From the NCBI RefSeq assembly GCF_964355755.1, contig NC_092680.1:3139001-3203000 (forward strand): DNA of 64,000 nt. The letters run 5' to 3'. Made by a program: the position numbers and the translations under genes. Below are positions 3,271 through 63,783 of the stretch, one piece after another (position 1 is the first letter of the stretch; every line of letters starts with the position of its first letter). Origin of the DNA: Antedon mediterranea (taxonomy: Eukaryota; Echinodermata; Crinoidea; Comatulida; Antedonidae). The notes under the pieces were generated by a model. The model saw only the letters and a program-made list of their open reading frames with translations. It ran no database searches and had not been told where the DNA came from.

Positions 3271-4215
3271 ATTTTACTCGCTCTACAATTTCAAGTACAC
3301 AAAGTAAAGCTTTGATTATTCAACGATGGTACCATTTTATTTGATGTCGTAACAAATGTCAACATTATCGAGCACATGGTGTGCAGGTTATATTTGACAC
3401 ATCACCTGATAATGACCGATGGAATTTGATTTATTATATTTAACAATAATTATGATACGGGGATAAAGACTGATATGGAACCCCCTTTCGCGACACTTTG
3501 TTGTATCCTAACTATGGTCAAACACAAGGACGAAAACAGATTTGTTTATACAATGATTATTAATTATCATTTGATGAAATATTTACTTAAGTTATTCTCA
3601 CATGATTGATACTATTTCACTACGAATAAATTATTAATTTATCGATATTGTTCTCTTAATCGAAATGCTTTGCATTTCCGGCCGCTCGCAGACGATGTAA
3701 ACATACCTATCTCGCGCCAAACCTCAATGGTGATATTATCATCTACTTGGGCTATCAGTGAGTTTGATAATCGAACATATCAAAGCGTAGAAACAAACAA
3801 AAAGCATCAATAAGATAAAACATTGAAAAGATTATCCACTTAATAATATATACAGATGACATTGAAATGACTATACAAACATGCACCCGACCACATGTTC
3901 ACTGATATTGTGCTGTTTTTAAAACTGTTTTGTTTTTCAATTATTATTTCACCTAAAGCAGAGTACTTGAAAACAATGTTAAACAACCAGAAGTTTACAA
4001 TAATTACAGGCCTAGTGCGTAATAATTTCAGAGCCACCCGATTATGTATTAGTATTTTAACATTGCCTTTTGCAATTTGATGTATTTTTTGTTGTTTCAT
4101 TGTCTTTATTATGCCAAGCAAAACAAATTTTCATTTTAAGTGGACCAATAACATTTCTTGTATCTTGAATCTAGTATTTAATACTGATACTCGTATGATT
4201 TGCGATAGTCAATAA

Positions 4216-4237
4216 GAATCTGTCTAGTGACAGATTC
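4216..4237. repeat. Perfect short hairpin
   Basis: GAATCTGTC and its exact reverse complement GACAGATTC are separated by a 4-base loop (TAGT). Nothing nearby suggests a specific role; it could be a chance structure or the core of a decayed palindromic element. Confidence 0.4.
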
Positions 4238-5442
4238 AGAATCGGGTGATGATAAGGTGAACGCGGATCTTTAATGAAAAAAGTTTTTGTGAAAATCGGC
4301 AAAAAACTTGTGATGATTCTGCTACTAAAAGCAATCTATTGTGAATGAGAGAACATTAAAAACAATAGTTATCTTTGTTTTCTCATTATTTTATTAAGTT
4401 ACTTTGTTGGTTTGTTTACTTAATAGTTGTCATATATGTGCTTATAACAACATCCAGCATGTTGTTGGTTGCTACTCAACGGTACCGGCATATAAGCACT
4501 TGAGGTTGATTCAATGCTTGTGCTTTTTTTGTAATGTGTCCTATTAATAGATGACTATGTGATATTGTCAGAAGGTATACATGGTTATCTGAACCGCCAA
4601 ATTTTTTTTATCTATTATGCCTAATTATAAAAAAATGTTTTATTTGTTTGTTTATAGAGTCATCTCGTGACAAGTGCAATTGTTTTTAAATATTATATAA
4701 ACAAATTGTTTGTAGTCGAACTATTATGTTGATTGATTGATTGAACTGAAATCTCGTCAACCTGACGATTAAGTTTCATCAAACGGATATATAGTGTTCT
4801 ATATTCAGTATTAATTCGATTACAGTACTGATTATCGCTACTCTTCACGATACGACACTTGATTTGATATTTTTCTTGTTACAGTTGACGTGATGCAAAT
4901 CGAGAATAGACACTGACATTTACATAGTCTGCCGATCGGAAGAGCATGTAATACGCCAAATTGCTTCATATCTAGGTTATCAATAGCAGTGATACCTGTG
5001 CCAACATGTGTCGTGGTTCGGTAGATCGATATTGCAAAATGACTACTTGTATCATACGAGTGCCATTGACTACAGGATGAGTGTTTAATATACGTCATTC
5101 CATGAAATAGATTTTGCGATTTGCGAAATGTCAACTTAAAAATCGTCTGATCTTCACAACTAGTTCATTGCGTAATATAATCCGGTTAGAACGTGTTTGT
5201 TGGCATATCATATCAAATTGACAAAATTGAAATGTCATTATACCGTGTTGTGAAGACGCTAATATCTCTATCAATCATTATAAACCTAGTATATTATTTG
5301 ATAATCGAAAAATACTTCTACCCATGGCATGATGATCAGTATGTAGGTTTATTGCGTCATTGTTGGCCCATTTTTAAGACTAGGAGAATCAGATGTATAA
5401 GCTACTATAGAAAGCCATTTGATGCTATTTTCTTTTCTTCGC

Positions 5443-6010: not shown

Positions 6011-8374
6011 AGGACCATCAGACCTATTATTGTATTATAATAATATCAGACGTTTTTACCCAAGACCAGTTTTCTCTTGTTTTACCGCTGGCGAGGAAAT
6101 TTCCAATTCTTTATTACTTTTTGGCGATCTCAGCTTGAGTATCCTATTATATATTTTAAGGTTGTATCTAAATCTTATACAATTCCTGTGACGTAATGCA
6201 GTAGGCGTCTACCTCTACTCTAATTAAACGTACGGTACATCTTTAGTCTGTTTGGAACAATCTTTTTAATTCAATTTAAGATGCTCCTTCTATCGAAGTT
6301 TTCAAACCCCTGTTAGACCCCCCCCCCACCCCATCTTTTTAGTGCTTTGTATTTAAGTGCTTTGGACCAATCTGTTGATTGTTCATGTTAAAAGCGCTTT
6401 ATAAATTTGACAACATTAACATTATTAGCTGTCTGTTCTGTGTGATCATCCTTGCTAGACAATGTCAACACTGATATTTGTATAGTGTACGATGGAATCA
6501 ATAACATGTAGGCCTATGATGCACTGATACATATACCCTCGTTTGTACTAATTGTATCAACATGTACCAACAATATGATGTTGTTATATTAATATTAGAC
6601 GCTGTGAGAGAGCTCATTTTTAAACAGAAAATGATAACACACAGTTTTGTTGTTTGTTTTTGTTGATTTTTCACACAAAATCAATATGATAAATTAATAA
6701 TATCTGAAATGGATTTCTAATGTTTAGACGCAATTAGTGGTTTTATATTGTGTTGCATGTTTTAGCCCCGAATTAAATTTGGTTTTTTACCAGGTCGCAA
6801 TCACAAAGCCACAGGATAAGAGTTATCGGAAATGCGACTTTGTCACTAGTCAACTCCCTTGCGTTGCGCATACGCATTTGCGTTGCGTCCTCTAGTGGTA
6901 AACTTTACACTCCTGCATGTTTCACTGTGAGGCCTACGTAAACAATGTCTGAAACCCGTTTATACAACACACACACGATAAATATACATTGTCTTTCTAC
7001 ATAAAACAAGAGAAATTTAAAAAGTTTGTATCGTAACAAAGTTGTTCTTATACTGATCATGACGTCATTTTTAGTAGATTTTTGAAAATATTACTTTCAC
7101 CCCGAGGACAGTATAAATGGTTATTCTACAGTTCTTTTTTTTTTCTTAGGCCTACACTTTTATCAATTTTGTCTTCTGTAGAAAAAAAATATGTATATTT
7201 ATTTATTTATCGTAGTTATTGCCCGTTTATTCGAAATAAATGAACACCAAAAGAAGTGCGCCCCCATACGATGGAAACTGAACAAACTTTATAAAAGTAT
7301 CGACGAATTTGTTTCGAAACGGGTACTACAAATTCACAGATTGGATTTACTACACACGAGATATTAAACACATTACGAATGAATTATTTAGTTAAAATGT
7401 GTTATTTAACACGTTAGGAAAGTTTTAATAAACAGTAAAGGACGTTTTGATTATAAAACAAGACTTGAACTTGTTTTTAAATCAGGTTCACAATCGTGGT
7501 TACTATAGGCATGCCCCATGCCAGTTAAAACATTTGACTCAATCTACGTACTCTATGTGAACAACGACATTGTCTGTTACTCTCGTTTGTTAATTCCATT
7601 TACATCGATCTAATATTTACTTACTAACTAACCAGACAAAATAAATCATAAGTTTAATACAAAAGATGCATTCATTGTTGTCACAGTATATGTCAATGAT
7701 ATGTCAACGAACTTAAGAACTGTCACCCGCTAGCTTTTTTAGTCTGCAAAAATGAACGCAGGCCGCCAGGGTCTCTGAAAACAAATCAACCATGAAAAGG
7801 CAACAGAACTCGTTTCTATAGGCTCACTTGTTGTCTAAATCCCCGACGCTATAAACCAGGGTCAATATTACAATAGATTGTGCCACACTCGAGCTCACAT
7901 AATGCAATTAAGCGGAAGTTGTTTTGTATACATTATTTGTAGTTTTAGCTATTATTCAAATTTAAATACTGTACACTTATTGCTGGTGTTTAAGTAACGC
8001 CGAATATATGATAAAACTTAACGATAACATCGACCTCATGACAATAGACCAGAATAATTAATTCCAAGAGCCAACAAAAATTATATATATTATATAATTA
8101 TATATTAAATTTCGTATATAAAAAAAAATATATTATTAATTGAATAAGGCTAATAATATCAACAAACAATAAACAAGTCTAACTTTTTTATTTATTTGTA
8201 TCAACAAATATAAAATATAGTAAAATAGACACATTTAAATAAAATTAACACTTGTACTAATTAATTAATTAATATCTGCAGTATATATTTAAATAAAATT
8301 AATCTCTTGACAGATTAAGCAATTACATACAATAAAGGTTATTAAAAATATATTAATTTTTTCTTTAGTTTTTC

Positions 8375-8631: not shown

Positions 8632-9829
8632 TCTATTATATTCTGAACAAAACTAACCACAACCGCAGGATGTTCTATTGATAATATGAATAGTAAGTTG
8701 TTCTTTAAGAACCCCATCAAGTCTCTTTATATACTTACAATTTTGAATTGTGTTTAAAGATCGAGGGTCGAACGAAAAATAATTACCTGCGAATCGAGTA
8801 TTATGTGTTTGCAAGGCGTACATCGTTTAATGATAAACCATATGGGGTATCAATGGGCTTTTGAAAATTCGTGTTATTAGTTTCCGAGTAAACAATAAAG
8901 TTTGTGTTTTTATGAAAAGTACAAGAGGAAGTGTGTGAATAGACACTCTTATGTGTATGTTGTTCTAAACGTTCATGCCAATAACAAAATAGGCCTTAAG
9001 ATTTCTTTTTCATATTGTGCATGTTTAACAGATTTCGATGCGTAGGCCTACTTTGGTTGTAGGTAGAATAATAACTATTTCCCTAACACTATTATTTTAA
9101 AAGAACACTTATGGTTCTTGCTACCCGACCACCACAATATAACTTCAATGATTCTGTTTCGGCTTCAATATTTGTAATCGATTACTTTTTTAGAAGTTGT
9201 TTATCAAATGTCATATACGGTAGGCATAGTAAATACACTGAAGTTAATAACACTAAATAGAGGAATTGACATGAATGTAGACCTGGCCTAGGCACATAAT
9301 AGTTCTTTTTACGACTTTGAAGTTACCTATTTTATCCAATAATTCCAAAGAAAAACAAAATCCATAATGTTCTGATTTATGTTTTCCTTTCCCTTGTCTG
9401 TTTTCATAGCCCGCAGAAGCATTCAACCAATTGCATGAGTTAAGTCCCTATCCGATTAGTTTAAATCCGTCAAAATATGTACACCATTTAATGAAAAGTA
9501 AACATTTTTTGAAATTAAAAAGAGGAGGATTTGGCTTATTTCCAGTGTGTGCTTGTTGTGTAACACTTCTACAAAACAAATTGATATTGTTTGCCAATTT
9601 GAGCTGTCAAAGAGTTGTGTTGAATGAACCTTAACCTATCAGTAAAATGTCGATGTTCCAAGTGAGAGTAATTAACAATGCAGTTAAAAAATAAAAGAAC
9701 TAGCAGCAAAACAAATCGTGTCACTATGAGTTACAGCAGCGATAGAAAAGTGTGTAAAAATAAAATTTACAAACAAATAATACAGTATAGCCCAAATGCA
9801 ACAGTAAAGAAAGACGTTGTCAGAATAGG

Positions 9830-12360
9830 AGAGGCAAGAGCAGCAAAGTAAAGCAGCAAGCTCAACTGCAACAGTACAGAGTAGGGCATGGCAGCAGAAT
9901 GGGAGATACAAAAGCAGCAAAGTAAAGCAGCAAGCCCAACTGCAGCAGTACAGAGTAGGGCATGGCAGCAGAATGGGAGAGGCAGGAGCAGCAAAGTAAA
10001 GCAGCAAGCTCAACTGCAGCAGTACAGAGTAGGGCATGGCAGCAGAATGGGAGATACAAGAGCAGCAAAGTAAAGCAACAAGTTCAACTGCAGCATTACA
10101 GAGTAGGGCATGGCAGCAGAATGGGAGATACAAGAGCAGCAAAGTAAAGCAGCAAGCTCAACTGCAGCAGTACAGAGTAGGGCATGGCAGCAGAATGGGA
10201 GATGCAAAAGCAGCAAAGTAAAGCAGCAAGCTCAACTGCAGCAGTACAGAGTAGGGCATGGCAGCAGAATGGGAGATGCAAAAGCAGCAAAGTAAAGCAG
10301 CAAGCTCAACTGCAGCAGTACAGAGTAGGGCATGGCAGCAGAATGGGAGATGCAAAAGCAGCAAAGTAAAGCAGCAAGCTCAATTGCAGCAGTACAGAGT
10401 AGGGCATGGCAGCAGAATGGGAGATACAAGAGCAGCAAAGTAAAGCAGCAAGCTCAACTGCAGCAGTACAGAGTAGGGCATGGCAGGAGAATGGGAGATA
10501 CAAGAGCAGCAAAGTAAAGCAGCAAGCTCAACTGCAGCAGTACAGAGTAGGGCATGGCAGCAGAATGGGAGATACAAGAGCAGCAAAGTAAAGCAGCAAG
10601 CTCAACTGCAGCAGTACAGAGTAGGGCATGGCAGCAGAATGGGAGATGCAAAAGCAGCAAAGTAAAGCAGCAAGCTCAACTGCAGCAGTACAGAGTAGGG
10701 CATGGCAGCAGAATGGGAGATGCAAAAGCAGCAAAGTAAAGCAGCAAGCTCAATTGCAGCAGTACAGAGTAGGGCATGGCAGCAGAATGGGAGATACAAG
10801 AGCAGCAAAGTAAAGCAGCAAGCTCAACTGCAGCAGTACAGAGTAGGGCATGGCAGCAGAATTGGAGATGCAAGAGCAGCAAAGTAAAGCAGCAAGCTCA
10901 ACTGCAGCATTACAGAGTAGGGCATGGCAGGAGAATGGGAGAGGCAGGAGCAGCAAAGTAAAGCAACAAGCTCAACTGCAGCAGTACAGAGTAGGGCATG
11001 GCAGCAGAATGGGAGATGCAAGAGCAGCAAAGTAAAGCAGCAAGCCCAACTGCAGCAGTACAGAGTAGGGCATGGCAGCAGAATGGGAGATGCAAGAGCA
11101 GCAAAGTAAAGCAACAAGCCCAACTGCAGCAGTACAGAGTAGGGCATGGCAGCAGAATGGGAGATACAAGAGCAGCAAAGTAAAGCAACAAGCCCAACTG
11201 CAGCAGTACAGAGTAGGGCATGGCAGCAGAATGGGAGATGCAAGAGCAGCAAAGTAAAGCAACAAGCCCAACTGCAGCAGTACAGAGTAGGGCATGGCAG
11301 CAGAATGGGAGAAGTAAAGCAGCAAGCCCAACTGCAGCAGTACAGAGTAGGGCATGGCAGCAGAATGGGAGAGGCAGGAGCAGCAAAGTAAAGCAACAAG
11401 TTCAACTGCAGCAGTACAGAGTAGGGCATGGCAGCAGAATGGGAGAGGCAAGAGCAGCAAAGTAAAGCAACAAGTTCAACTGCAGCAGTACAGAGTAGGG
11501 CATGGCAGCAGAATGGGAGAGGCAGGAGCAGCAAAGTAAAGCAGCAAGCTCAACTGCAGCAGTACAGAGTAGGGCATGGCAGCAGAATTGGAGATGCAAG
11601 AGCAGCAAAGTAAAGCAACAAGTTCAACTGCAGCAGTACAGAGTAGGGCATGGCAGCAGAATGGGAGAGGCAGGAGCAGCAAAGTAAAGCAGCAAGCTCA
11701 ACTGCAGCAGTACAGAGTAGGGCATGGCAGCAGAATGGGAGAGGCAGGAGCAGCAAAGTAAAGCAGCAAGCTCAACTGCAGCAGTACAGAGTAGGGCATG
11801 GCAGCAGAATGGGAGATGCAAGAGCAGCAAAGTAAAGCAACAAGTTCAACTGCAGCAGTACAGAGTAGGGCATGGCAGCAGAATGGGAGAGGCAGGAGCA
11901 GCAAAGTAAAGCAGCAAGCTCAACTGCAGCAGTACAGAGTAGGGCATGGCAGCAGAATTGGAGATGCAAGAGCAGCAAAGTAAAGCAGCAAGCTCAACTG
12001 CAGCAGTACAGAGTAGGGCATGGCAGCAGAATGGGAGATGCAAAAGCAGCAAAGTAAAGCAGCAAGCCCAACTGCAGCAGTACAGAGTAGGGCATGGCAG
12101 GAGAATGGGAGAGGCAAGAGCAGCAAAGTAAAGCAACAACCTCAACTGCAGCAGTACCGTATCGTAAAGAAGGCATAGCAGAATGGGAGATACATGACAG
12201 CAAAGTAAAGCAACAACCTCAACTGCAAAAGGTATGGTAAAGAAAGGTATGGCAGAATAGGAGATGCAGGAGCAGCAAAATAAAGCAACAAGCTCAACTG
12301 CAGCAGTATGGAAAAATAGACGTTGTCGGAATGAGAGATGCAGGAGCAACAATCTTGACT
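9830..12360 (+). repeat. 74-bp minisatellite array, about 31 units, with degenerate edges
   Basis: A 74-bp unit, CAG-rich and poor in T on this strand, is repeated head to tail from about 9830 to 12140. Landmarks in each unit are AGTACAGAGTAGGGCATGGC and a following GAATGGGAGA. One unit, near 11290-11350, lacks 14 bases. Marker variants recur at multiples of five units: CAATTG at 10381 and 10751 (370 bp), and GAATTGG near 11587 and 11957 (370 bp). From 12140 to 12360 the units degenerate, and both edges carry a shared edge-type variant with AGACGTTGTC. Because 74 is not divisible by three, the overlapping open frames on both strands are by-products of stop-poor sequence, not genes. Confidence 0.95.
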
Positions 12361-21739: not shown

Positions 21740-22842
21740 TCATGCATTTACAGCCACCCCAAATGAATGTTCATACTTTTTAGGCCGATGGTGATTTGTT
21801 GTCTGCCTTTCGCTTTCCCGCCTCGACACTGCGGCCTCAACCAAAACATCAAATTTACTAAAGGCGTTTCCATTGTTACACTGGGTTTCTTTGGTAAAGT
21901 CTTTTTCTGGTGGTGGTTGTAAATTTAAATTATATTTCCTTGTAGAGTTGAATGTTTCATCACGATCGTCTTTTCTATTGTCTATCGGCGATTCAGAGTC
22001 TTTTCTAACAACCAAGTTCAAAGGTGTTTCGCATTCATGTCTTCTCATCCAATGATGACGAGGGTGCTGTCCGTACATTAATCCATAATATGGTGATGGC
22101 ATAATCGGGTGCATTGGGTGCAGGGAATGCATTGTCCTGGCAGGCGGTGCCAAAAACGCTGAATAGAATGGAATAGCAGGTTCACGAGTGTCATGGCAAA
22201 TGTATGATGTTGGAGGTCGTTGCAGCTCACGATGTGGAAGAGATCGAATTGGAGACGGGGACCTTCTTCGCGAAGGTAGCAACGTTTCTGGTTGTTGAGG
22301 TGGTGTATAAGGTGGTGTTACTGGGTGGTAAGGACGTTCCATTGGAGAGATACTCTCAGATTTTGTATCTTCCTCATCAATGTCTTTTGTCGAATCAGTT
22401 TCACTTTCTGTCAGTCGTCTTTCTGACGATTCGTAACTGTCAGCTTCTGAAATATCGTCCGTTTCCATCGGTTCTTCGCTGTTTTCGGATTCCTTCCTTG
22501 CCTTGGATTTTGCTGAAGTCTTTCGAGAGATTGTGAATTTGTCGGGATCGTGGCCTTCTTTTCTAATCATTTCTGGAAGGATTCTTCGCCTTGCGTTGAT
22601 GAACCAATTGCAAACTTGCAAAATTGTAAGATTAGCCATCTGGGCAAGCTGCATTTTCTCTTGATCATTCGGGTAAGCATTGTATCGATGTTCGTATAAC
22701 CATTGTTTTAATATCTTCACAGCTTCTTTTGGCAAGTTTCCTCTACGTTTCTTTGCTGGTCTTTTTTCACCAGTTTGATTAGGCTTCCGGAAAACAACTC
22801 CGATTGGCGCTGGAGGTTCAACCTCATAAGTCTTGGTACTTA
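21740..22842 (-). CDS. TGIF: TGIF coding exon 2 (homeodomain and C-terminal region)
   Basis: The splice acceptor on the minus strand is TTTTTCAG, ending at 22843. The exon carries residues 6-372 and ends in TGA at 21742-21740. The entire homeodomain is in this one exon. Confidence 0.9.
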
Positions 22843-50829: not shown

Positions 50830-53800
50830 ATGTTCAACGAATATTTTTGGATATCTCTTGTTTTGTGTGTTTACCCAGGGATCAAACACTTCTCTGCAGG
50901 TAAGCTGGATTTAAAATATATACCTGCAATTTCAATGCTTAGCTACTTTGTTAATCTCACACCACTCTACTGAAACACACTTCAAGCAAAAGAAGCAGCA
51001 TCGACACATTGTTTTAAGCTGCATGCAGGAAGATAAATACATGTTCTTTTCAGATTTTTACAGAATTTGCAGCAACGAAAAATTCAAACTGTGAAGCTGT
51101 AGAGAGTATATCTAAACTTCTACAGAATCATTCATTTCAATACATAGAAACAATTTTGTATCTAAGTCAATATATTTCCTGCATACTGATAACCATTATT
51201 AATTCTGGCCTACTTGTTATGTTATTTCAGCGAGTGATTGCGGTTCGCCACCTGCAATTGGCAATGCTACATTAACATCTTCTGGTGGTTCATCAGAAGG
51301 TGACTACGTCATCTATACATGTGAGAGTGGCTTTCTTCCGACTGAAAACCAAGCAAATGCGGTGAAGTTTTGTCAAGATGGACAATGGATAGGAAGTGAT
51401 CTTAAATGTAAATGTAAGTGCAAATTAATGTATTTTCAACAGTAGTTACGGGCACCAAAGGTACGGTACCTCTAAGATTTGAATTTCTGAACATATCAAG
51501 GACGTATTCACAACATTTGTTTACACTAACCTTACCAGAGTTCGTTTACTGAAAAGCCAGAGTTTGTTCAATTCCAATTTTCAATTCAAAGCAACATTTA
51601 TTTCTTTTTATGTTCATCAAGAAGAAGGTTAACAGTTAATATAAGAAAACAAGAATAATACAAACTCATTTTCAACAGATCTTAAATGTCCAGAACCATC
51701 TGTGCCTGCCTTTGGCAACGTAAGCAGTAGTACGACAGAGTATAATACAGTAATCAGCTACTCATGCCATCCAGATAAAACATTAGAAGGAAATAGTACA
51801 AGACGTTGTCAGGTTGATGGCTCGTGGAGCGGCGAATCACCAAACTGTATTGAATATGGTCAGTATAGTATACTTATTAAAGCAAACATTGATAATAAGA
51901 TCATGTTGGTTTCAACTCTGTATTTAAAAATAAATGTTTAAATAGCAGTCCTTACGTTTTCTTGGCGAGTCATTGTTGATGATATTTTCTATCTTCTCTT
52001 TTGTAAAGGTTGTGAGAGCACAAACGATGATTTCATCGTGGCCGACACATGCTTTAACATAAAAGTTGAGGAAAAGACGTGGCAAGGAGCAAATGTGAGT
52101 TGTATATCTTCTGGAGCTAATCTGGCGTACATTGGAAATGAGGAAACACAAGAAGAAGTTGTAAAGGAGATTAATAGGAAATACGGGAATGAGAATCACG
52201 ACTACTGGATCGGATTATATGAAGTTATTGTGACGCAGTGGTACTGGACTGACAGTAGGCCTAATTTATTTAATTTTGATAAAGATACATATTGGCAGTG
52301 ATCTGGAGAGGGGCGGAGGGGAGGGCCGTATGTCCCGATGTGGTCATTAATGTTTATGTCATTGTGCAAACGGGGTGGAACATAAACATATTGTATTCTA
52401 GTTATTCTAAGATATTACCCCTTACTACTAGTAGTATTTGTAATGGCCTGGAAACCACCAATCATGTAGGTTAATAGTTCTGTTGGCATTTGTTTCTTAG
52501 TATGTGACTGAAGGAGGAGCTTTTAATGTCTGCTAAAATATGTTCTGAATACATCTATTTCACAGGTGATTCTCCTATGGTTTACAGTAATTGGGAATCT
52601 GCATCAGCCGGTGATGTTGGCGATCGTTGCTTTCTTAAGGGTAGCACAGCGAAATGGTCAAGCGTATTTTCTGGAACTACAATGGGATATATCTGTCAAT
52701 TTGGTATGGAACTTTTTTTATGGAATGCTGCATTTTTAAAGTAACACATTGTAGCAAGCTCAAAAGATATTAAAGACATAAAACATCCATATGTGTACTA
52801 TTACAGTTCAATTAAAAATAAAGAACATTTTTGTTTTCTATTTTAACTTAATTATAATAATTATTCAATTAAATAAATCATCATTTTGATTTTTAAATTC
52901 GTTCATTTAATCCTTAGCTGATGATTGCCCAAACCATTTTAGCTCAACTGGAGACTTTTTAAAATATGGTACATCAATAATTGATGGAAACACTTACTGT
53001 TTTGTATTTAATCCATCGGCGAATCAAAATTGGAATGGGGCGAGAGATAATTGCAAGAATCAATACCGTAAGTCTGACGGAGGAACAGAAATGACAGGAC
53101 GTCTTGTTGAAATCACAGATGAGATCACACAAACTTACATTGAATCGTTGATAACAAAGAACAGTAATGACTTAGGTGGTGGTGACTATTGGATTGGTGC
53201 TGAGAAGAAGAACGCTGATCCACGTGTTTGGAAATGGACAAATGGTCAGTATGTACAAAGAATTTGTATTATATCGTATACTTTATTTTATTAAATGTCA
53301 ACATTGCAAACATTTGAACTAGGCCTAATGGAGTCGTAGTTAAGTATCACTGAGCTTTTAGGATATGGCTACTTGATGTCTGACTAAGGATTTATAAAGA
53401 AAAAATTTGGTTTTGTGTGTGGCAGTGCATAATGTGTAACAGAACAAGTCAATTTCCAGAAAAATAAAGATTATGTTTTGTTTTATATTTAGGCAAATTG
53501 TATTCACTATTATTTTAGGGTAATTTCTTCTGTTACTTTTTACACTTACCAATCTCAATTTCGTAAAAGGGAGCCAGTCTAACATGACCACAATGGTAGT
53601 AGATGACACAAGGCATATTTTATAATTCATATATTACGTCAAAGTATGTTTTACATTAGCGTTTATTTTAAATTGGCAATAATTTAGGTCTTAATTCAAC
53701 ATATACATCATGGGGTCCTAATGAACCTAGTGGTGATGGAAGTTGCGTAAACTTGTTGAAAGTACACGGGTATAATTGGAACGATGAAGGCTGTGGTACA

Positions 53801-56800
53801 ACGTCGGGATACATCTGTAGTTACGGTAAGCAATACATTCAGTTGATACAAAATTGTAGTGTAGAGTAAAACCAAAATAAAAGTAGTACGTGCCAAGAGG
53901 TAAAGGGTTTAAACATACAATTATATACATATGACGCGGAGCTTCCAGGATCTAGACGGTGATTTGTTGGCGTAATACTGCACTTGAGCTGGTTTAGTTT
54001 CGGACAAAATATCAAAACGCGATGATCCACTTGTAGCGCTCGTAAAGGAATACTACCAACATGAAAACGACAACTAGAGACTTGGGGCAAGTCTATATAC
54101 AGTGAAGTGACACCTTAGAACATTGCTTTTATTTTATTTACAATCAAATTATAAATGGCTAAGAAAAAATAGGCTCCTTTTAAAAATGTTTTTTTTTTGT
54201 TTCCAATCATAACATGTAATATAATAAATATAAAATAAATATTGCATTTAAAGATTATGCTGATGCTGTTACTTTCTGTGGGTTTCCTGGTGGTATACTG
54301 AATGGATTTGTTTTAGACGACGTAAAGGATAAATACGACATAGGTAATGTTGTTCGCTATGATTGCATAAACGGCTACACTATGGAAGGATCACCTAACA
54401 TCACGTGTACAAATAATGTTAAATGGGAAAATAAACCATTATGTGTTGGTAAGTATATTTAATATTAATGTTTCTTAAGAGAAAAAGATATTATGTCAGC
54501 CAATTGGTGGCAAAACGATTTTTATTTAGATATAAACCACTTAAAGGTAAACAAGTAAATTAGTCCCACATCGACATTTAGACATTTAGACGACTGTTTA
54601 GTTATTCAGTTGAAGTCTAACCAGAAATTACAATTTGATAAAGTTTATTTTTTTAAATAATATTCTTTTTTTGACTAGCTGTAAATTGCACATCCCAGCC
54701 ACACAAAATCGAGTTCTCTACTTATACAAATGTGTCGGCTGCCAAGTACTGTGACGTAGTTGTGTACGAATGTTGGGATAATTACACTATGGTGGGATTT
54801 GGTGTTTCAACGTGCTTAGCCAATGCGACATGGAGCTATCCAGAATTTACTTGTGAAGGTAGGAATGAACGATTTTATAAAGCATAGCTTTTAAAATCAT
54901 TGTATACGTTGAAAATGAGTGTAGATTCATCGTCATTAAAAAAAGTATATCGGTTTATTCGTTCTTATATTTATGATTTAATTTGATGTTATTAAATTTG
55001 TCATTTTCTCTTCAGGTATTAAACCAACGATTGAGTCTAGTACGAAAAACCTTAGGAGCACCATAGTAACTGGCGTCGTGAGTTCGCCTACACATCAGAC
55101 ACAACCTACCAAAGAAGGCTTGACGACATCATTTACCACGCCAGATAATCCGATAGACATTGCTTCAACAACCGAATATTTTGGAATGTCTACTGGTACA
55201 ATTTATCATACAGCAGATGAAACATTGACAACCGAATTCGAAACGACTTACTATACTACATTTACAACTCAAGAAAAGCCTACAACAGAAGTTGCGACAA
55301 CTGAATTTATGAAAACACCTGAACGTGCACGAACAACGACAACCTACAACACATTAACAACAAAATTAGAGTCCACAGAAGACACTATAACACAAGTAAA
55401 TATGTCAACAAGAGACATTATTTTGACAACTGAATCTAAAGAAACATCTGAAGGTACACCATTAATTACGGCAACCGACCAAACATTGACAACAGAATTA
55501 GAGTCGACAGAAGACACTATAACACAAGAAAATATATCGACAAGAGAAATTATTTCGACAACTGAATCTATAGAAACATCTGAAGGTACACGATCAACGG
55601 CAACCGACCAAACATTGACAACAGAATTAGTGTCGACAGACGACACTATAACACAAGAAAATATATCGACAAGAGAAATTATTTTGACAACTGAATCTAT
55701 AGAAACATCAGAAAGTGCACGAACAGCGACAACCGCCAACACATTGACAACAGAATTAGATTCGACAGACGACACTATAACACAAGAAAGTATGTCGACA
55801 AGAGAAATTATTACGACAACTGAATCTATAGAAACATCTGAAGGTACACGATCAACGGCAACAAACCAAACATTGACAACAGAATTAGAGTCGACAGTCG
55901 ACACTATAACACAAGAAAATGTGTCGACAAGAGAAATTATTTCGACAACTGAATCTATAGAAACATCTGAAGGTGCACGAACAGCGACAACCGACAAGAC
56001 ATTGACAACAGAATTAGAGTCGACTGACGACACTATAACACAAGAGAATATGTCGACAAGAGAAATTATTGCGACGACTGAATCTATAGAAACATCTGAA
56101 GGTACACGATCAACGCGAACCGACCAAACATTGACAACAGAATTAGAGTTGACAGACGACACTATAACACAAGAAAATGCTACAGCAGAAATTATTTCGA
56201 CAACTGAATCTATAGAAACATCTGAGGGTACACGATCAACGGCAACCGACCAAACATTGACAACAGAATTAGAGTCGACAGACGACACTATAACACAAGA
56301 AAATGCTACAGCAGAAATTATTTCGACAACTGAATCTATAGAAACATCTGAAGGTACACGATCAACTGCAACCGACAACACATTGGCAACAGAATTAGAG
56401 TTGACAGACGACACTATAACACAAGAAAATGCTACAGCAGAAATTATTTCGACAACTGAATCTATAGAAACATCTGAAGGTACACGATCAACGGCTACCG
56501 ACCAAACATTGACAACAGAATTAGAGTCGACATACGACACTATAACACAAGAAAATGCTACAGCAGAAATTATTTCAACAACTGAATTTATAGAAACATC
56601 TGAAGGTACAAGATCAACAGCAACCGACCAAACATTGACAACAGAATTAGAGTCGACAGACGACACTATAACACAAGAAAATGCTACAACAGAAATTATT
56701 TCGACAACATTTGAAGGTACACGACCAGCGACAACCGAACGAGAATTTACAACAGAATTAAGGCTGACAGAGGATATTAAAACACAAGAAACTCCGTTAA

Positions 56801-59447
56801 CAGAAATGACTTCGATACCTGAATCTATAGAAACATCTGATAATATAGGAACAGAAGCAACAACTTCCAGCGCATGGTCAACGCAGAATTATAGGACGTC
56901 TGACACCATTATTATTGTGACAACTGCATCAAAACAGTCAGAAGGTATCAAATCAACAATGCAACGAAAACAGACAACTGGCGGTACTTGGTCAACTCAG
57001 AGCTTTATAACAAATGGAATGACGACATCACATTCGCAAACATCGCAAACTCAACAGAGACCAACCACAAAACAAATGTTGTCAACTATTATTAGAGAAA
57101 CTAGTGACGGTGCAAGAACCACACAGAAATATACGACCATTGAAATGTCAACAACTCAATCGCCACAAACAGAGGCTATTGCATCACCAACCCAGAACAT
57201 TCTGACAACACACGTATCAATAACTGATCCGGTAACACCAAATGATGATGGTACACCTCAGACGCAGGATCACGTGACAACTGTCGAAGCGGTGACAACT
57301 AACTTACAGCGGACAGAAGGTATGCTTTCCTCAACACAGAAAGTGCAGCCTACAACAGAAGTATCTACAAGACAAACTGCTGACGGTTCACCAACACAGA
57401 GACCAACTGATGATGGTACACCTCAAACGCAGAAACACGTGACAACTGTCGAAGCAGTGACAACTAACTTGCAACAGACAGAAGGTATGCCTTCCTTAAC
57501 ACAGAAAGTGCAGCCTACAACAGAAGTACCTACAAGACAAACTGCTGACGGTTCACCAACACATAAACCAACTGATGATGGTACACCTCAAACGCAGAAA
57601 CACGTGACAACTGTCGAAGCGGTGACAACTAACTTACAACAGACAGAAGGTATGCCTTCCTCAACACAGAAAGTGCAGCCTACAACTGAAGTATCTACAA
57701 GACAAACTGCTGACGGTTCACCAACACAGAGACCAACTGATGATGGTACACCTCAAACGCAGAAACACGTGACAACTGTCGAAGCGGTGACAACTAACTT
57801 ACAACAGACAGAAGGTATGCCTTCCTCAACACAGAAAGTGCAGCCTACAACAGAAGTATCTACAAGACAAACTGCTGATGGTTCACCAACACAGGACTTT
57901 GATAAAACCGATATACTGACAACTCAATCACAGAAGACGAATTTGGTCTCAAAAGGAACACAGCAACATACAGCTGAAGAAGAATTTACAACTAAACCAC
58001 ACAAAACAAATTATGTTGTTAACATTACAACATTACAGACAAAGCTATCAACAGGGAGTGAACCAACAACCAAACGTCAACAAAAAGAGACAACAGAATA
58101 CTGTAAGTATTGCATGAGCATGTATTTCCCAAATCAATAGAATAGGACAACTTACTCATAAACTATCATAGTGTCCTCATAACCGATTGGTATTCTGATT
58201 CTATTATCTACATCAAATGTGGTCTTTGATTACAGATTCCACATCGAACCCTCCCAGTGAAGGACTTACTCTTACATATTTAAGTAAGTATATAACTTTG
58301 TCAGCTTTGTATAATATTTAGAGCACAGTTAGCATGATATAAAATAACTAGATTTCATATTGGGATTTAACTGCACGACACGACGCGCGACGCGGAAATA
58401 CGAACTTACCGAAGCGTGTCGTAAACATTACAAATCAGTTGATCATAGAGTCGCATACGGTCGTATCGTCTCCACACCACCGATTGTTTTTGGATATGCA
58501 CCGATAACAGTTAACTTGCTGTAGACATATTGGCGGTTGTGTAGATGAAATAATAACTTTAACCGTCAGCGATCGTTGTCTTTACTGACCCTACTCGTTA
58601 TTTTGTTTCAGTTATCATTAGCGTTTTAAGTGCTTTCGTGGTTCTGTTTCTCTTAATCCTTATACTGTTAATCTGTTCTTATTTGAGACGGTAAGTATAG
58701 TTAGTTCACTAATCCTAATTATTTGAGGCATCCATTTTGTCGTTTCCAGAATAGTGTAAAGGTGATTTAAGATTCCTTCAAAAAAGAGGGATTAGCCGCT
58801 CAATAAATTTAATAAACAATAGAATATTAATAGAAAATATAGAATGAATGTAAATTACCAGGAAGGTGGGCTTTTGTACACCGACTTGGCTGTACCTATC
58901 TAACTTCTTTCTTTCTAGAGAGTATTTTAAAATCAAATGTGTTAATCAGTATTCTATTAATTGTGTTTAGTTAGCAAAGAATAGTAGTAGTTACCAAAAC
59001 AAATTGATAAACAAGATATATCAGTGATGAAGAGAATAATTCATTATATTTTTATTGGTTGAATGTAGAAGACATCCTATAGAAGAGTCAAAAGCAGAAG
59101 ATCTTGATTTCGACGAACCACCACCACATGTCGACCAAGATTTCTTTTCCAACTTCACGGGTATTCCGAGAGCACGGCTTTCTTTTCAACATGATGTTTT
59201 AGACAAATTCGATTATTACAACGAAGGCTACAGTGAATTTGAAGCTACGTCTCAAGTAATGTATGTGAGGCGAACAAACCGTGTTTCGCAGTCAAACTGG
59301 GAAAGAGATCCTAGCTACGAGCCTTCAAATACAGGGCCTAGCTTTAAAACGAATCGTGGCTATGAAAAGGGTTATGAGGATTCAGAACTTATTCCAATGA
59401 ATTCAATGGGAGAAACAAAAGCTTCTTATGGTTTTCCAGTTTATTAG
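50830..59447 (+). CDS. Receptor copy A: CCP2 - CTLD2 - CCP2 - mucin stalk - TM - tail (13 coding exons)
   Basis: Exons: 50830-50899, 51231-51413, 51679-51858, 52009-52254, 52566-52703, 52918-53244, 53688-53825, 54254-54448, 54679-54858, 55016-58102, 58236-58283, 58612-58690, 59069-59447. All borders are GT-AG; the frame stays open to give 1749 residues. Signal peptide 1-23 (exon 1). CCP/sushi modules are exons 2 and 3 (24-144). CTLD1 is exons 4-5 (145-272), with WIGL but no EPN-type motif. CTLD2 is exons 6-7 (273-427), with WIGA, EPS at 394-396 and WND at 412-414, suggesting calcium-dependent sugar binding. Exons 8 and 9 are further four-Cys CCP modules. The Thr/Ser-rich stalk is 553-1597, the helix IISVLSAFVVLFLLILILL starts near 1599, and the tail 1624-1749 has YYNE and an acidic dileucine-like EDSELI. 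Probable cell-surface lectin/adhesion or immune receptor (inference). I know no named gene with this order. Confidence 0.88.
55354..56760 (+). repeat. Coding minisatellite 1 in the mucin stalk: 126-129-bp unit, ~11 copies
   Basis: Inside exon 10. Each unit encodes LTTELES-D-DTITQEN, then STREI or ATAEI, then ISTTESIETSEGTRSTAT. Six early units use the 43-residue STREI form and later units the 42-residue ATAEI form. All lengths are multiples of three, so the frame is kept. Thr/Ser density points to heavy O-glycosylation. A 440-codon antisense frame over the same DNA is a by-product. Confidence 0.92.
57243..57897 (+). repeat. Coding minisatellite 2 in the mucin stalk: 165-bp unit, ~4 copies
   Basis: Each unit encodes 55 residues that include DDGTPQTQKHVTTVEAV, TTNLQQTEGMPSSTQKVQ and PTTEVSTRQTADGSPTQ. 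The copies are nearly identical at DNA level, so they are younger than minisatellite 1. They lie about 500 bp downstream of it in the same exon. Confidence 0.92.
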
Positions 59448-60614: not shown

Positions 60615-63600
60615 ATGACACTCAACAAAAGAACGATTGTGTTCCTGTTTATTTGTATAAGTTGTGCTGTACAATCTGAAGGTATTCCCAATAATTATTG
60701 ATTTACTGTCTAAATTATTAAAATATAGACTTAAATTCAACATTTATGCATTGACCATACAATTTCATGTACGTATTGTCTTTAGATCATCGCCATCAGA
60801 TATTCCATCAACGTTAAAATTTGCGCATGCAATCCGTGTTTTTTTGCAAGGACAATTAGTTTGGACAAAAAAAGTAAACTGCGCCAGTGCAAAATCGCTG
60901 AGTCGTTGCTATTTGCATAACAAAGTTTGCATAGCAACACAACCATTTGCTGATTTAGGAAACAATGTTAATCTGGGCTACATTTTCATAGATTAAGAGA
61001 AAGAAACATCTCTAGTTTGCACCCATACAAAGAATGAGATGATCTGATATAAAAAGGTACGTGTGCCAACAGTTTCGTGGTATTTAGTAGGACCTATGCC
61101 TATTTTTCTTTCCCGTTTTGTTTCAGCGAGTGACTGCAGTTCGCCACCTGAAATTGGCAATGCTACATTTACATCTTCTGGTGGTTCATCAAAAGGTGAC
61201 TACGTCATCTATACGTGTAACAGTGGCTTTCTTCCAACTGAAAACCAAGCAAATGCGGTAAAGTTTTGTCAAGATGGACAATGGATAGGAAGTGATCTTC
61301 AATGCAAATGTAAGTCTGTGTTAGAAAAGACGACAGAAGATACGACTTTCATGATTAGTGTTTGTGACGTAATTATTATAATATTACATGGAAATTGCTT
61401 ATCAACTATCAATTACGGTTTAAACCCGCATATTATTGATCCAAATTATTAAAGTTATGCAAATAATGAATGGCTTAGTAACCTACAGTCATTTCTTAAA
61501 TTGAATTGGTAAGCTGATAATTAGTTTACTGACCATCTTAATACGTTCACACGGTTTCTAAATAACGTTAGAATGATAACATAGCAAATGTAATTTTCAA
61601 CAGATCTTGAATGTCCAGAACCATCTGTGCCTGCCTTTGGAAACGTAAGCAGTAGTACGACAGAGTATAATACAGTAATCAGCTACTCATGTCATCCAGA
61701 TAAGACATTAAAAGGAAATAGTACAAGACATTGTCAGGTTGATGGCTCGTGGAGCGGCGAATCACCAAACTGTGTTGAATATGGTCAGTATACATATACT
61801 ACATACTACATATAATATAGATAATAAAATCATGTTTATTTAAAAATGAATAAATGTTTATTATTGGCGCTTATTCGGAAGAAGAATTTACTAACCAAGC
61901 AATAGCAGTATTTAATTTTGGTGAGTCACTGTTGATGTTATTTTCTATCTTTTCTTTTGTAAAGGTTGTGAGAACACAAACGATGATTTCATCGTGGCCG
62001 ATACTTGCTTTAACATAAGAACCGAGGAAAAAACGTGGCAAGGAGCTAATGTGAGTTGTATATCGTCTGGAGCAAACCTGGCGTACATTGGAAATGAGGA
62101 AACAAAAAAAGAAGTTGTAAAGGAGATTAATAGGAAATACGGGAATGATGATCAAAACTACTGGATCGGATTGTACGAAGATATTGTGACGCAGTGGTAC
62201 TGGGCTGACAGTTAGTTTTATTTAAATAAAGATACATCATTAAATAATGTGATAACTGTCATATTCATTGTTTTAGTCACTTATTATCCAATATCGTTTA
62301 TTAGTATCATAATTGTATAACTGAGAATAATAATAATAATTATCACCTTATTATTACGTTAATCGTCATTCGTCTCGTAACAGTCATAATTACAATAAAG
62401 TTATTACCAAGTAATATTATATATAATCATAATCACAACGTCGTATAATTTATTCATTGTATTCCATCATTACCAGTGGTAATATAATCCCATTTGTAAA
62501 CTCTACGGATTACTTCAACCATGGAGGATCCTCCATGCTTCAACTATTTCTTTATAATATAATAGGTAATTAATTTCGTTATGGCTTTTCTCCTGATATA
62601 CTTCCACATGTTGAATTACTTTTGAATTATCAGTTGATTATTGCATAAAGTATATTATACCGTTAACTTGATTCTATCACAGGTAATTCTCCCATGGTTT
62701 ACACTAATTGGGAATCTGCATCAGCTGGTGACGTTGGCGATCGTTGCTTTCTTAAGGGCAGCACAGCGAAATGGGCAAGCGTATTTTCTGGAACTACAAT
62801 GGGATATATCTGTCAATTTGGTATGGAACTTTTTTTATGGAATGCATCATTTTTAAAGTAACACATTGTAGCAAGCTCAAAAGATATTGAAGACATAAAG
62901 CATCCATGTGTGTGTATTACAGTTCAATTAAAACTAATGAACATTTTTGTTTTCTATTTTAACTTAATTATAATAATTATTCTATTAAATAAATCATCAA
63001 GAAATATGTTGCTTTTTAATTGATTTTTAAATTCGTTTATTTAATCCTTAGCTGACGATTGCCCAAACCATTTTACCTCAACTGGAGACTTTTTAAAATA
63101 TGGTCCAGCACACATTGATGGAAATACCTACTGTTATGTGTTCAACCCGTCGTCTAATAGCAATTGGAACGGAGCGAAAGACACTTGCAAGTATCAATAT
63201 TATGACTACAGTGGAGGAAGACAAATGTTAGGACGTCTTGTTGAAATCACAGATGAGATCACACAAACTTACATTGAATCGTTGATAACAAAGAACAGTA
63301 ATGACCTCGGTGGTGGTGACTATTGGATTGGTGCTGAAAAAAGGAACGCTGATCCACGTATTTGGAAATGGACAAATGGCCAGTGCATCGTTTTGATTAC
63401 ATTTAAAATTTATATAAATTATGGAGTTTCTCAATTGATAAATAACCATGTGTCCATTGTCATTGTTTAATTATGTTATCGAATTGATAGATTAGCTGAC
63501 TCATGTATACATTTTTAAAATTACCTTTACATACTAACTGGTAGTAACTAGTTTATACTGAGCTGTGTATTCGGACCACCATAAAAATGAAGACAAGAAA

Positions 63601-63783
63601 GACCAATGGAAAGATAGTAACAGGAATATATCTGTAATTTTATAGGTCTTAATTCTACCTATACATCATGGGGTCCTAATGAACCTAGTGGTGATGGGAA
63701 TTGCGTCAACCTGTTGAAAGTACACGGGTATAATTGGTGCGATGAAGGTTGTGATAAATCATCAAGGTACATTTGTAGTTACG
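60615..63783 (+). CDS. Receptor copy B (partial; continues past the right edge): CCP2 - CTLD2 visible
   Basis: Visible exons: 60615-60681, 61127-61309, 61604-61783, 61965-62210, 62683-62820, 63052-63378, 63646-63783; total 426 residues. Exons 2-7 have exactly the lengths of copy A (183, 180, 246, 138, 327, 138) and closely similar sequence, so this is a tandem duplicate. The signal peptide exon differs: MTLNKRTIVFLFICISCAVQ here, MFNEYFWISLVLCVYPGIK in A. In CTLD2 the EPS motif is kept but WND is WCD (411-413), removing a usual calcium ligand. The donor after exon 6 is GC instead of GT (63379-63380). If unspliced, the frame ends about 30 codons later at 63468-63470, giving a protein without the lectin core. 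Domain role as for copy A; fate of the stalk and membrane anchor is off the window. Confidence 0.83.
62520..62537. repeat. 18-bp perfect palindrome in intron 4 of copy B
   Basis: CATGGAGGATCCTCCATG is its own reverse complement and has CTTCAAC on each side in direct orientation, as a small insertion with a target duplication would. The corresponding intron of copy A lacks it. Confidence 0.6.

Follow-up and report, generated by a model that had tools for sequence, protein, structure and literature searches.

The large CTLD and CCP families have roles in adhesion and development as well as in recognition, and several described surface proteins combine features found at the locus studied here. 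Members of the mannose receptor family (group VI) carry many tandem CTLDs and, to our knowledge, no CCP, and CD248 (endosialin, group XIV) has a mucin stalk. Zebrafish Cd248a consists of one CTLD, one CCP and five EGFs encoded by a single exon (PMC9471012), the CTLD of Fugu selectins is reported to lie on the 5' exon (PMC514892), and the insect CTL-X protein TcCTL15 is reported to combine a single CRD with eleven CCPs and an F5/8-type domain (PMC9954269). The gene analysed here, copy 1 of a tandem set, lies in a 64,000-nt window (the whole stretch of DNA that was analysed) from a marine animal, probably a feather star. As the original prediction proposed, its product has the order signal peptide-CCP-CCP-CTLD-CTLD-CCP-CCP-mucin-transmembrane segment-tail, which is backed by Pfam and by two tandem paralogues, the signal peptide being assigned by eye. 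A full-text literature search, covering titles and abstract starts and leaving most subscription journals outside its scope, returned no description of this order.

Gene model and domain content of copy 1

The 13 exons at 50830-59447 on the forward strand join in frame into 5250 bases encoding 1749 residues, with a single terminal stop and with GT donors and AG acceptors at 12 of 12 introns, which bears out the predicted in-frame closure. Introns 1-11 are phase 1 and intron 12 is phase 2. The exons are as follows.

50830..50899, +, exon 1: start and presumed signal peptide (assigned by eye), phase 1 end
51231..51413, +, exon 2: CCP1 (splice chain and Pfam)
51679..51858, +, exon 3: CCP2 (splice chain and Pfam)
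52009..52254, +, exon 4: CTLD1 first part, WIGL (splice chain and Pfam)
52566..52703, +, exon 5: CTLD1 second part
52918..53244, +, exon 6: CTLD2 first part, WIGA (splice chain and Pfam)
53688..53825, +, exon 7: CTLD2 second part, EPS and WND
54254..54448, +, exon 8: CCP3 (splice chain and Pfam)
54679..54858, +, exon 9: CCP4 (splice chain and Pfam)
55016..58102, +, exon 10: Thr-rich stalk of 1029 residues with 43-residue and 55-residue repeats
58236..58283, +, exon 11: juxtamembrane
58612..58690, +, exon 12: the greater part of the transmembrane segment
59069..59447, +, exon 13: cytoplasmic tail with YSEF, YYN and EDSELI

The Sushi and Lectin_C search that had been proposed for the product detected four domains of the first kind and two of the second. 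Pfam was applied to residues 1-560 and to the transmembrane segment and tail, while the stalk was judged by composition. In residues 1-560, Sushi was found in four stretches (E 5.6e-32; 110.4 bits against a curated cut-off of 20.7) and Lectin_C in two (E 1.9e-21), with no further family up to E 1; the transmembrane segment and tail gave matches only under the cut-off. Since the stalk is free of Cys, an EGF domain cannot lie within it. Domain search likewise gives four Sushi and two Lectin_C domains for the head of copy 2 and for that of copy 3, so that a C-type lectin-like domain is recognised by profile in all three copies. The WIGL, WIGA, EPS and WND motifs are present in copy 1 as claimed, and the predicted membrane anchor corresponds to one transmembrane segment (residues 1589-1626). 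There is likewise a single such segment in each of the four genes of the cluster (three copies and a headless gene), and none of the four passed the hydropathy cut for a signal peptide.

The "huge mucin stalk" of the original prediction stands as a Thr-rich repeat exon, but with a composition of 28% T, 9% S and only 4% P it is better called mucin-like. Its coding frame is free of stops, while the two other forward frames contain 76 and 65. We take a 440-residue antisense ORF at 55344-56666 to be a probable by-product of the repeats, and we disregarded a similarity between the stalks of copies 1 and 3, which their composition could produce by itself.

That a soluble CCP-CTLD lectin and a neighbouring membrane mucin were wrongly joined is an idea to which the adjoining headless gene lends some substance, as it shows that a mucin half can exist alone. 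Several points speak against such a join. Introns 9 and 10 measure just 157 and 133 bases, exon 10 has phase 1 junctions at both ends, the exon chain is the same in copies 2 and 3, and in its 3' part the stalk exon of copy 1 aligns with that of copy 2 over 177 positions at 40% identity, a weak match obtained with the composition filter off. Because the order recurs in two paralogues, the head dN/dS between copies 1 and 2 is 0.32 and both of these introns are short, chance assembly or a two-gene join is very unlikely, and we give the latter hardly any credence. The single-gene reading is thus upheld by the domain search and the two tandem paralogues.

Tandem copies, a headless neighbour and the history of the heads

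Two tandem copies downstream of copy 1 keep the order of signal peptide, two CCPs, two CTLDs, two CCPs, stalk and transmembrane segment; across the three, the Thr-rich stalk varies greatly in length and the tail is short or of medium size. Copy 2 begins at 60615, inside the window and just past 50830-59447; its exons 8-13 lie past the window end, reaching C11:3205684. Exons 1-7 are as follows.

60615..60681 (C11:3199615-3199681), +, exon 1: putative signal peptide
61127..61309, +, exon 2: CCP1
61604..61783, +, exon 3: CCP2
61965..62210, +, exon 4: CTLD1 first part
62683..62820, +, exon 5: CTLD1 second part
63052..63378, +, exon 6: CTLD2 first part, GC donor
63646..63783, +, exon 7: CTLD2 second part, EPS and WCD

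An apparent stop in the CTLD1 match of copy 2 sits just beyond the exon end, at the donor. In all three copies, every head exon (2-9) is phase 1 at both of its boundaries. The headless neighbour, consisting of signal peptide, stalk, transmembrane segment and tail, also closes in frame.

Of the 529 head residues, 460 are the same in copies 1 and 2, whereas their stalk lengths, transmembrane segments and tails all differ; near-identical ectodomains joined to different tails are one of the features of paired receptors as a way of working. Within these heads, dS ranges from 0 to 0.82 across 36-codon windows, and synonymous and nonsynonymous differences are both clustered, a distribution which suggests mosaic gene conversion. 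Recent duplication would account for the shared residues as well, and introns at this cluster appear to change quickly: between copy 2 and the headless gene, three introns have 45-58% identity (no shuffled control), against 69-84% for the signal-peptide, juxtamembrane, transmembrane and tail exons of the same pair. On the other side, 10 of the 12 introns of copies 1 and 2 lie at 0.42-0.58 identity, against 0.43-0.55 for shuffled sequences (one shuffle each), while intron 5 stands at 0.94; this unevenness, together with the clustering and the range of dS, makes recent duplication in place of conversion a rather unlikely explanation.

No sign of positive selection was seen in the heads, dN/dS being below 1 (0.32 for copies 1 and 2; 0.27 for copies 1 and 3, a pair in which dS is saturated in two exons). 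A candidate peak at residues 291-326 was dropped because synonymous changes also peak there.

Candidate sugar-binding site, tails and proposed function

EPS is present in CTLD2 of all three copies, and WND in copies 1 and 3 (2 of 3), with WCD in copy 2. CTLD1 has neither an EPN/QPD-type motif nor WND, and exon 5 of copy 1 reads WSS at the WND place. Judged from these motifs, CTLD2 is the only domain predicted to be fit for Ca2+-dependent sugar binding, and copy 2 retains these motifs only in part. It should be noted that CTLD2 of copy 1 has no Glu at what we take, by placing the residue numbering by eye, to be the usual third Ca2+ ligand place; given this missing Glu and the WCD of copy 2, sugar binding may be weak or lost. 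Among solved chains, the C-terminal half of CTLD2 best matches the galactose-specific C-type lectin 1jzn (E 8.2e-07). For the whole head, complement receptors and factor H score best, and as these matches come through the CCPs they carry little information on the ligand. When both CTLD profiles were run against the PDB, the mannose receptor family had the top total scores, raised by its many domains. DCIR, an immune receptor of the EPS type, is reported to bind mannotriose and Lewis glycans (PMC11624271).

Four tails were scanned for seven motif types with 2000 shuffles as control. The tail of copy 1 (127 residues) has an acidic dileucine, EDSELI, of a kind found in 2.9% of shuffles, and that of copy 3 has NPF (1.2%) and DPW (2.0%). 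The tail of copy 2 (27 residues) and that of the headless gene have none of the seven types, and Tyr occurs in copy 1 but not copy 2. An explanation by signalling motifs was dropped, since no tail of the four contains an ITIM and YxxPhi and YxN are frequent in shuffles. Paired receptors also signal in opposite senses from a shared ligand (ITIM against ITAM or an adaptor), and of this arrangement the ITIM side was looked for and not seen in any of the four tails.

We regard copy 1 as a real type I membrane receptor gene, one of three tandem paralogues, whose likeliest job would be to let immune or epithelial cells recognise glycans of microbes or of altered self (probability of roughly 0.5). 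A glycan- or microbe-binding function and a role in adhesion or immunity are what we infer from the domains. In the proposed mechanism, an O-glycosylated stalk would hold the head above the glycocalyx, the EPS/WND site of CTLD2 would bind sugar with Ca2+ in copies 1 and 3, CTLD1, its sugar site lost, may bind protein or serve as a structural partner, the two pairs of CCPs could act as spacers or protein-binding arms, and the tail might drive uptake or signalling. Gene conversion would keep the heads alike while different tails are attached in paired-receptor fashion. A precedent is TcCTL15, a CCP-rich transmembrane lectin that is reported to bind bacteria (PMC9954269).

Two other roles can be considered. 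The stalked head may bind a glycan on a neighbouring cell, or itself, in developing or regenerating tissue. Such cell-cell adhesion is possible: the combination of CTLD, CCP and transmembrane segment resembles selectins and Furrowed, the long Thr-rich stalk fits cell-cell contact, and homophilic adhesion through the second CCP is reported for Furrowed (PMC9954269). However, both an EGF and an N-terminal CTLD are absent, and a housekeeping adhesion gene would less often be expected in tandem copies whose tails and stalks diverge, next to a headless sibling. Alternatively, variable stalks and converted heads might distinguish haplotypes as markers of individuality, with the headless copy as modulator. 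The clustered differences between copies, the repeat-built stalks and a polymorphic CCP-containing gene of Ciona, for which a role as individuality marker has been proposed (PMC5465252), are consistent with this, but the head dN/dS of 0.32 and data from one assembly make allorecognition improbable.

Returning to the receptor reading, its broadest form is speculative and, in our opinion, unlikely to hold in full: a lineage-specific recognition cluster in which conversion would maintain a glycan-binding head, exon exchange would join it to independently evolving stalks, anchors and tails, and the headless gene would work as a decoy or a regulator. Such a cluster would be the invertebrate counterpart of paired immune or allorecognition receptors, made from CTLDs and CCPs. 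If the receptor reading is true, the locus would be a clear-cut example of modularity by phase 1 exons, with a symmetric eight-exon head in three tandem genes that is missing from a fourth, and with stalk and tail free to change.

Comparison with known systems

Within the same genome, CCP runs lie beside two CTLDs on one strand at C1:14725126-14733232 and C1:34906006-34920451. These loci differ from copy 1. In the stretch read, their 15 and 19 CCP matches flank the CTLDs on a single side, the CTLDs are in single open frames, and there is one weak match to the copy 1 head (36%, E 5.1e-4). Their occurrence lowers the surprise of an architecture that the original prediction called unfamiliar, and copy 1 is therefore a variant and no new kind.

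Among described systems, the mannose receptor family likewise consists of type I receptors with tandem CTLDs, whereas in copy 1 four Sushi domains flank just two CTLDs. CD248 shares CTLD, CCP and a transmembrane segment; copy 1 lacks the EGF repeats of group XIV, has two CTLDs and four CCPs, and is spread over 13 exons in place of the single-exon gene of CD248. From Furrowed and TcCTL15 it differs in pairing two CTLDs with four CCPs and in having a repeat stalk. Selectins, like copy 1, unite CTLD, CCP and a transmembrane segment in one surface protein, and the predicted contrast with them holds: a single N-terminal CTLD followed by an EGF is replaced by two internal CTLDs with CCPs on both sides, a long repeat stalk and no EGF. 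Nor is either CTLD on one exon, a phase 1 intron splitting both in all three copies; in copy 1 it falls at the equivalent point of each, leaving exons 5 and 7 at 138 bases apiece. Copy 1 would, should the receptor reading be true, represent a selectin-like yet differently built receptor type outside vertebrates.

Gene structure and the tandem family

The original prediction of a 13-exon chain closing in frame at window positions 50830-59447 (+) was borne out: all 12 introns are GT-AG (introns 1-11 in phase 1, intron 12 in phase 2), and the joined exons, 5250 bases with one terminal stop, encode 1749 residues. The predicted domain order also held, namely signal peptide (putative, by eye), CCP, CCP, CTLD, CTLD, CCP, CCP, stalk, transmembrane segment (TM) and tail, with a Pfam search of residues 1-560 recovering Sushi (four stretches, E 5.6e-32) and Lectin_C (two stretches, E 1.9e-21), the only two families with E up to 1. 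The stalk exon, exon 10, spans 3087 bases; its own frame is free of stops, whereas the other two forward frames hold 76 and 65. It repeats mainly with periods of 129 and 165 bases, both divisible by three. Thr makes up 28% of its product, Ser 9% and Pro 4%, and the absence of Cys from the stalk excludes an EGF module there. The single hydrophobic segment, residues 1589-1626, serves as the predicted TM; Pfam matches to the TM and tail piece all fell below the cut-off.

This gene (copy 1) is a member of a tandem family. The genome (18 contigs totalling 354 Mb, of which 11 measure 22-41 Mb) was searched with the 529-residue head, the CCP and CTLD part encoded by exons 2-9, yielding at least 59 matches (82 of 171 candidates scored); among the matches listed, all those with >45% identity belong to one cluster on contig 11 (C11). 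Reading 29.4 kb at this cluster gave two more complete chains, with a headless gene between them.

Further genes of the contig 11 cluster
Copy 2, C11:3199615-3205684: 808 residues, 13 exons, one GC donor; start inside the window at 60615
Headless gene, C11:3207787-3211784: 139 residues, 5 exons closing in frame
Copy 3, C11:3214627-3223658: 1553 residues, 12 exons

The heads of copies 2 and 3 each contain four Sushi and two Lectin_C stretches by Pfam. The headless gene comprises a signal peptide, a Thr-rich stalk, a TM and a tail resembling the copy 2 tail, and extra stalk exons are possible within its long introns. Every head exon is bordered by phase 1 at both ends, so that the frame is kept with or without the head, and the headless gene shows an instance of such in-frame absence.

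Other features were observed in the window and in the further stretches read from this genome (L001-L003).

Window 9821-12308: satellite-like array with a repeat unit of 74 bases (148 and 222 as other readings), GC about 0.51, strong AT skew
Window 21740-22735 (-): 331-residue open frame with a Homeobox_KN domain (E 6e-19), TGIF-like by eye
L001 6837-7015 and L002 6174-6353: 182-base repeat, 84% identical between sites, tRNA-derived SINE-like by eye; ARAGORN found no tRNA in L001 or L002
L002 about 3730-4270 and 7855-8035, within copy 3's intron 5: repeated element whose ends are complementary; by eye it resembles a MITE
L003 5857-6843 (-), downstream of copy 3: 328-residue open frame, rhodopsin-type GPCR-like by eye

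Heads, stalks, tails and possible function

Copies 1 and 2 have 460 of 529 head residues in common; between copies 1 and 3, identity per exon is 36-63% where the sequences align. Stalk exons encode 1029, 190, 902 and 43 residues in copies 1, 2, 3 and the headless gene, respectively. The repeat units of copies 1 and 3 are unlike each other. With the composition filter off, the 3' parts of the copy 1 and copy 2 stalk exons align over 177 positions at 40% identity. The tails (127, 27, 74 and 34 residues, in the same order) are unlike one another, save that copy 2 resembles the headless gene, and the copy 1 tail had no match beyond itself in the genome at E up to 1.

Read from the sequence, this anatomy of head, extended stalk, TM and tail says surface receptor. 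The main rival reading of its role is adhesion; we favour recognition of glycans or microbes, which would be coupled to uptake. The copy 1 tail has an acidic dileucine (one occurs in 2.9% of shuffles) and the copy 3 tail has NPF (1.2%) and DPW (2.0%), but these come from a scan of four tails for seven motif types, which found none in copy 2 or the headless gene.

History of the heads and of the two CTLDs

The heads of copies 1 and 2 differ by a dS of 0.218 and a dN of 0.070 (ratio 0.32), with dS ranging from 0.079 to 0.426 by exon and from 0 to 0.82 in 36-codon windows. Residues 291-326 hold the peak density of synonymous differences (p 0.003) and of nonsynonymous ones (p 0.0008), by 5000 shuffles each. 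For copies 1 and 3, dS is 1.56, not being computable in two exons, and dN is 0.42. Intron identity between copies 1 and 2, counted over ungapped columns with one shuffled control per intron, is 0.42-0.58 in 10 of 12 introns versus 0.43-0.55 after shuffling, the largest excess among these being in intron 8 (0.58 vs 0.44); intron 3 reaches 0.70 (control 0.47) and intron 5 reaches 0.94 (control 0.54). Window 51231-54858 and C11:3200127-3203526 have head exons alike while most introns lie near the shuffled level. From this pattern we infer an older duplication overlaid by patchy gene conversion. What speaks against it is that copy 2 and the headless gene match at just 45-58% in three introns (a figure without shuffled control), with non-stalk exons at 69-84%. 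Introns in this cluster thus diverge rapidly, and gene conversion is not taken as proven.

CTLD1 (exons 4-5) and CTLD2 (exons 6-7) are each interrupted at the same place by a phase 1 intron in all three copies. Exons 5 and 7 have the same length, 138 bases, in copies 1 and 2, and measure 138 and 141 bases in copy 3. The matching split position and exon sizes argue that a two-exon unit was probably duplicated to give the two domains. CTLD2 reads EPS in all three copies, with WND in copies 1 and 3 and WCD in copy 2; neither EPS nor WND was found in CTLD1. Among solved chains, the whole head best matches complement receptors and factor H, via its CCPs, and both CTLD profiles give their top total scores to mannose-receptor family chains, boosted by the many domains of these. 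The C-terminal half of CTLD2 best matches the galactose-specific lectin 1jzn (E 8.2e-07), closely followed by a mannose-receptor domain that likewise reads EPS. DCIR carries EPS, with mannotriose and Lewis glycans as ligands (PMC11624271).

Comparison with known systems

The copy 1 family misses at least one tested defining feature of selectins, of CD248 and of mannose receptors. Three other loci of the same genome were picked for Sushi and Lectin_C matches lying close together; one has four CCP matches and one CTLD match, and the other two are as follows.

C1:14725126-14733232 (-): CCP run (15 matches), then two CTLD matches; the CCP run extends to the end of the stretch read
C1:34906006-34920451 (-): CCP run (19 matches), then two CTLD matches

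By their domain matches, both these loci resemble copy 1 in setting CCPs beside two CTLDs. Sushi-containing CTLD proteins are present in bivalves too (PMC10140915). Since these loci and bivalves combine the same domains, the copy 1 family is a variation on a known CCP and CTLD kind. With a common head and divergent tails, its members would be like paired receptors in their way of working, an analogy that claims no kinship.
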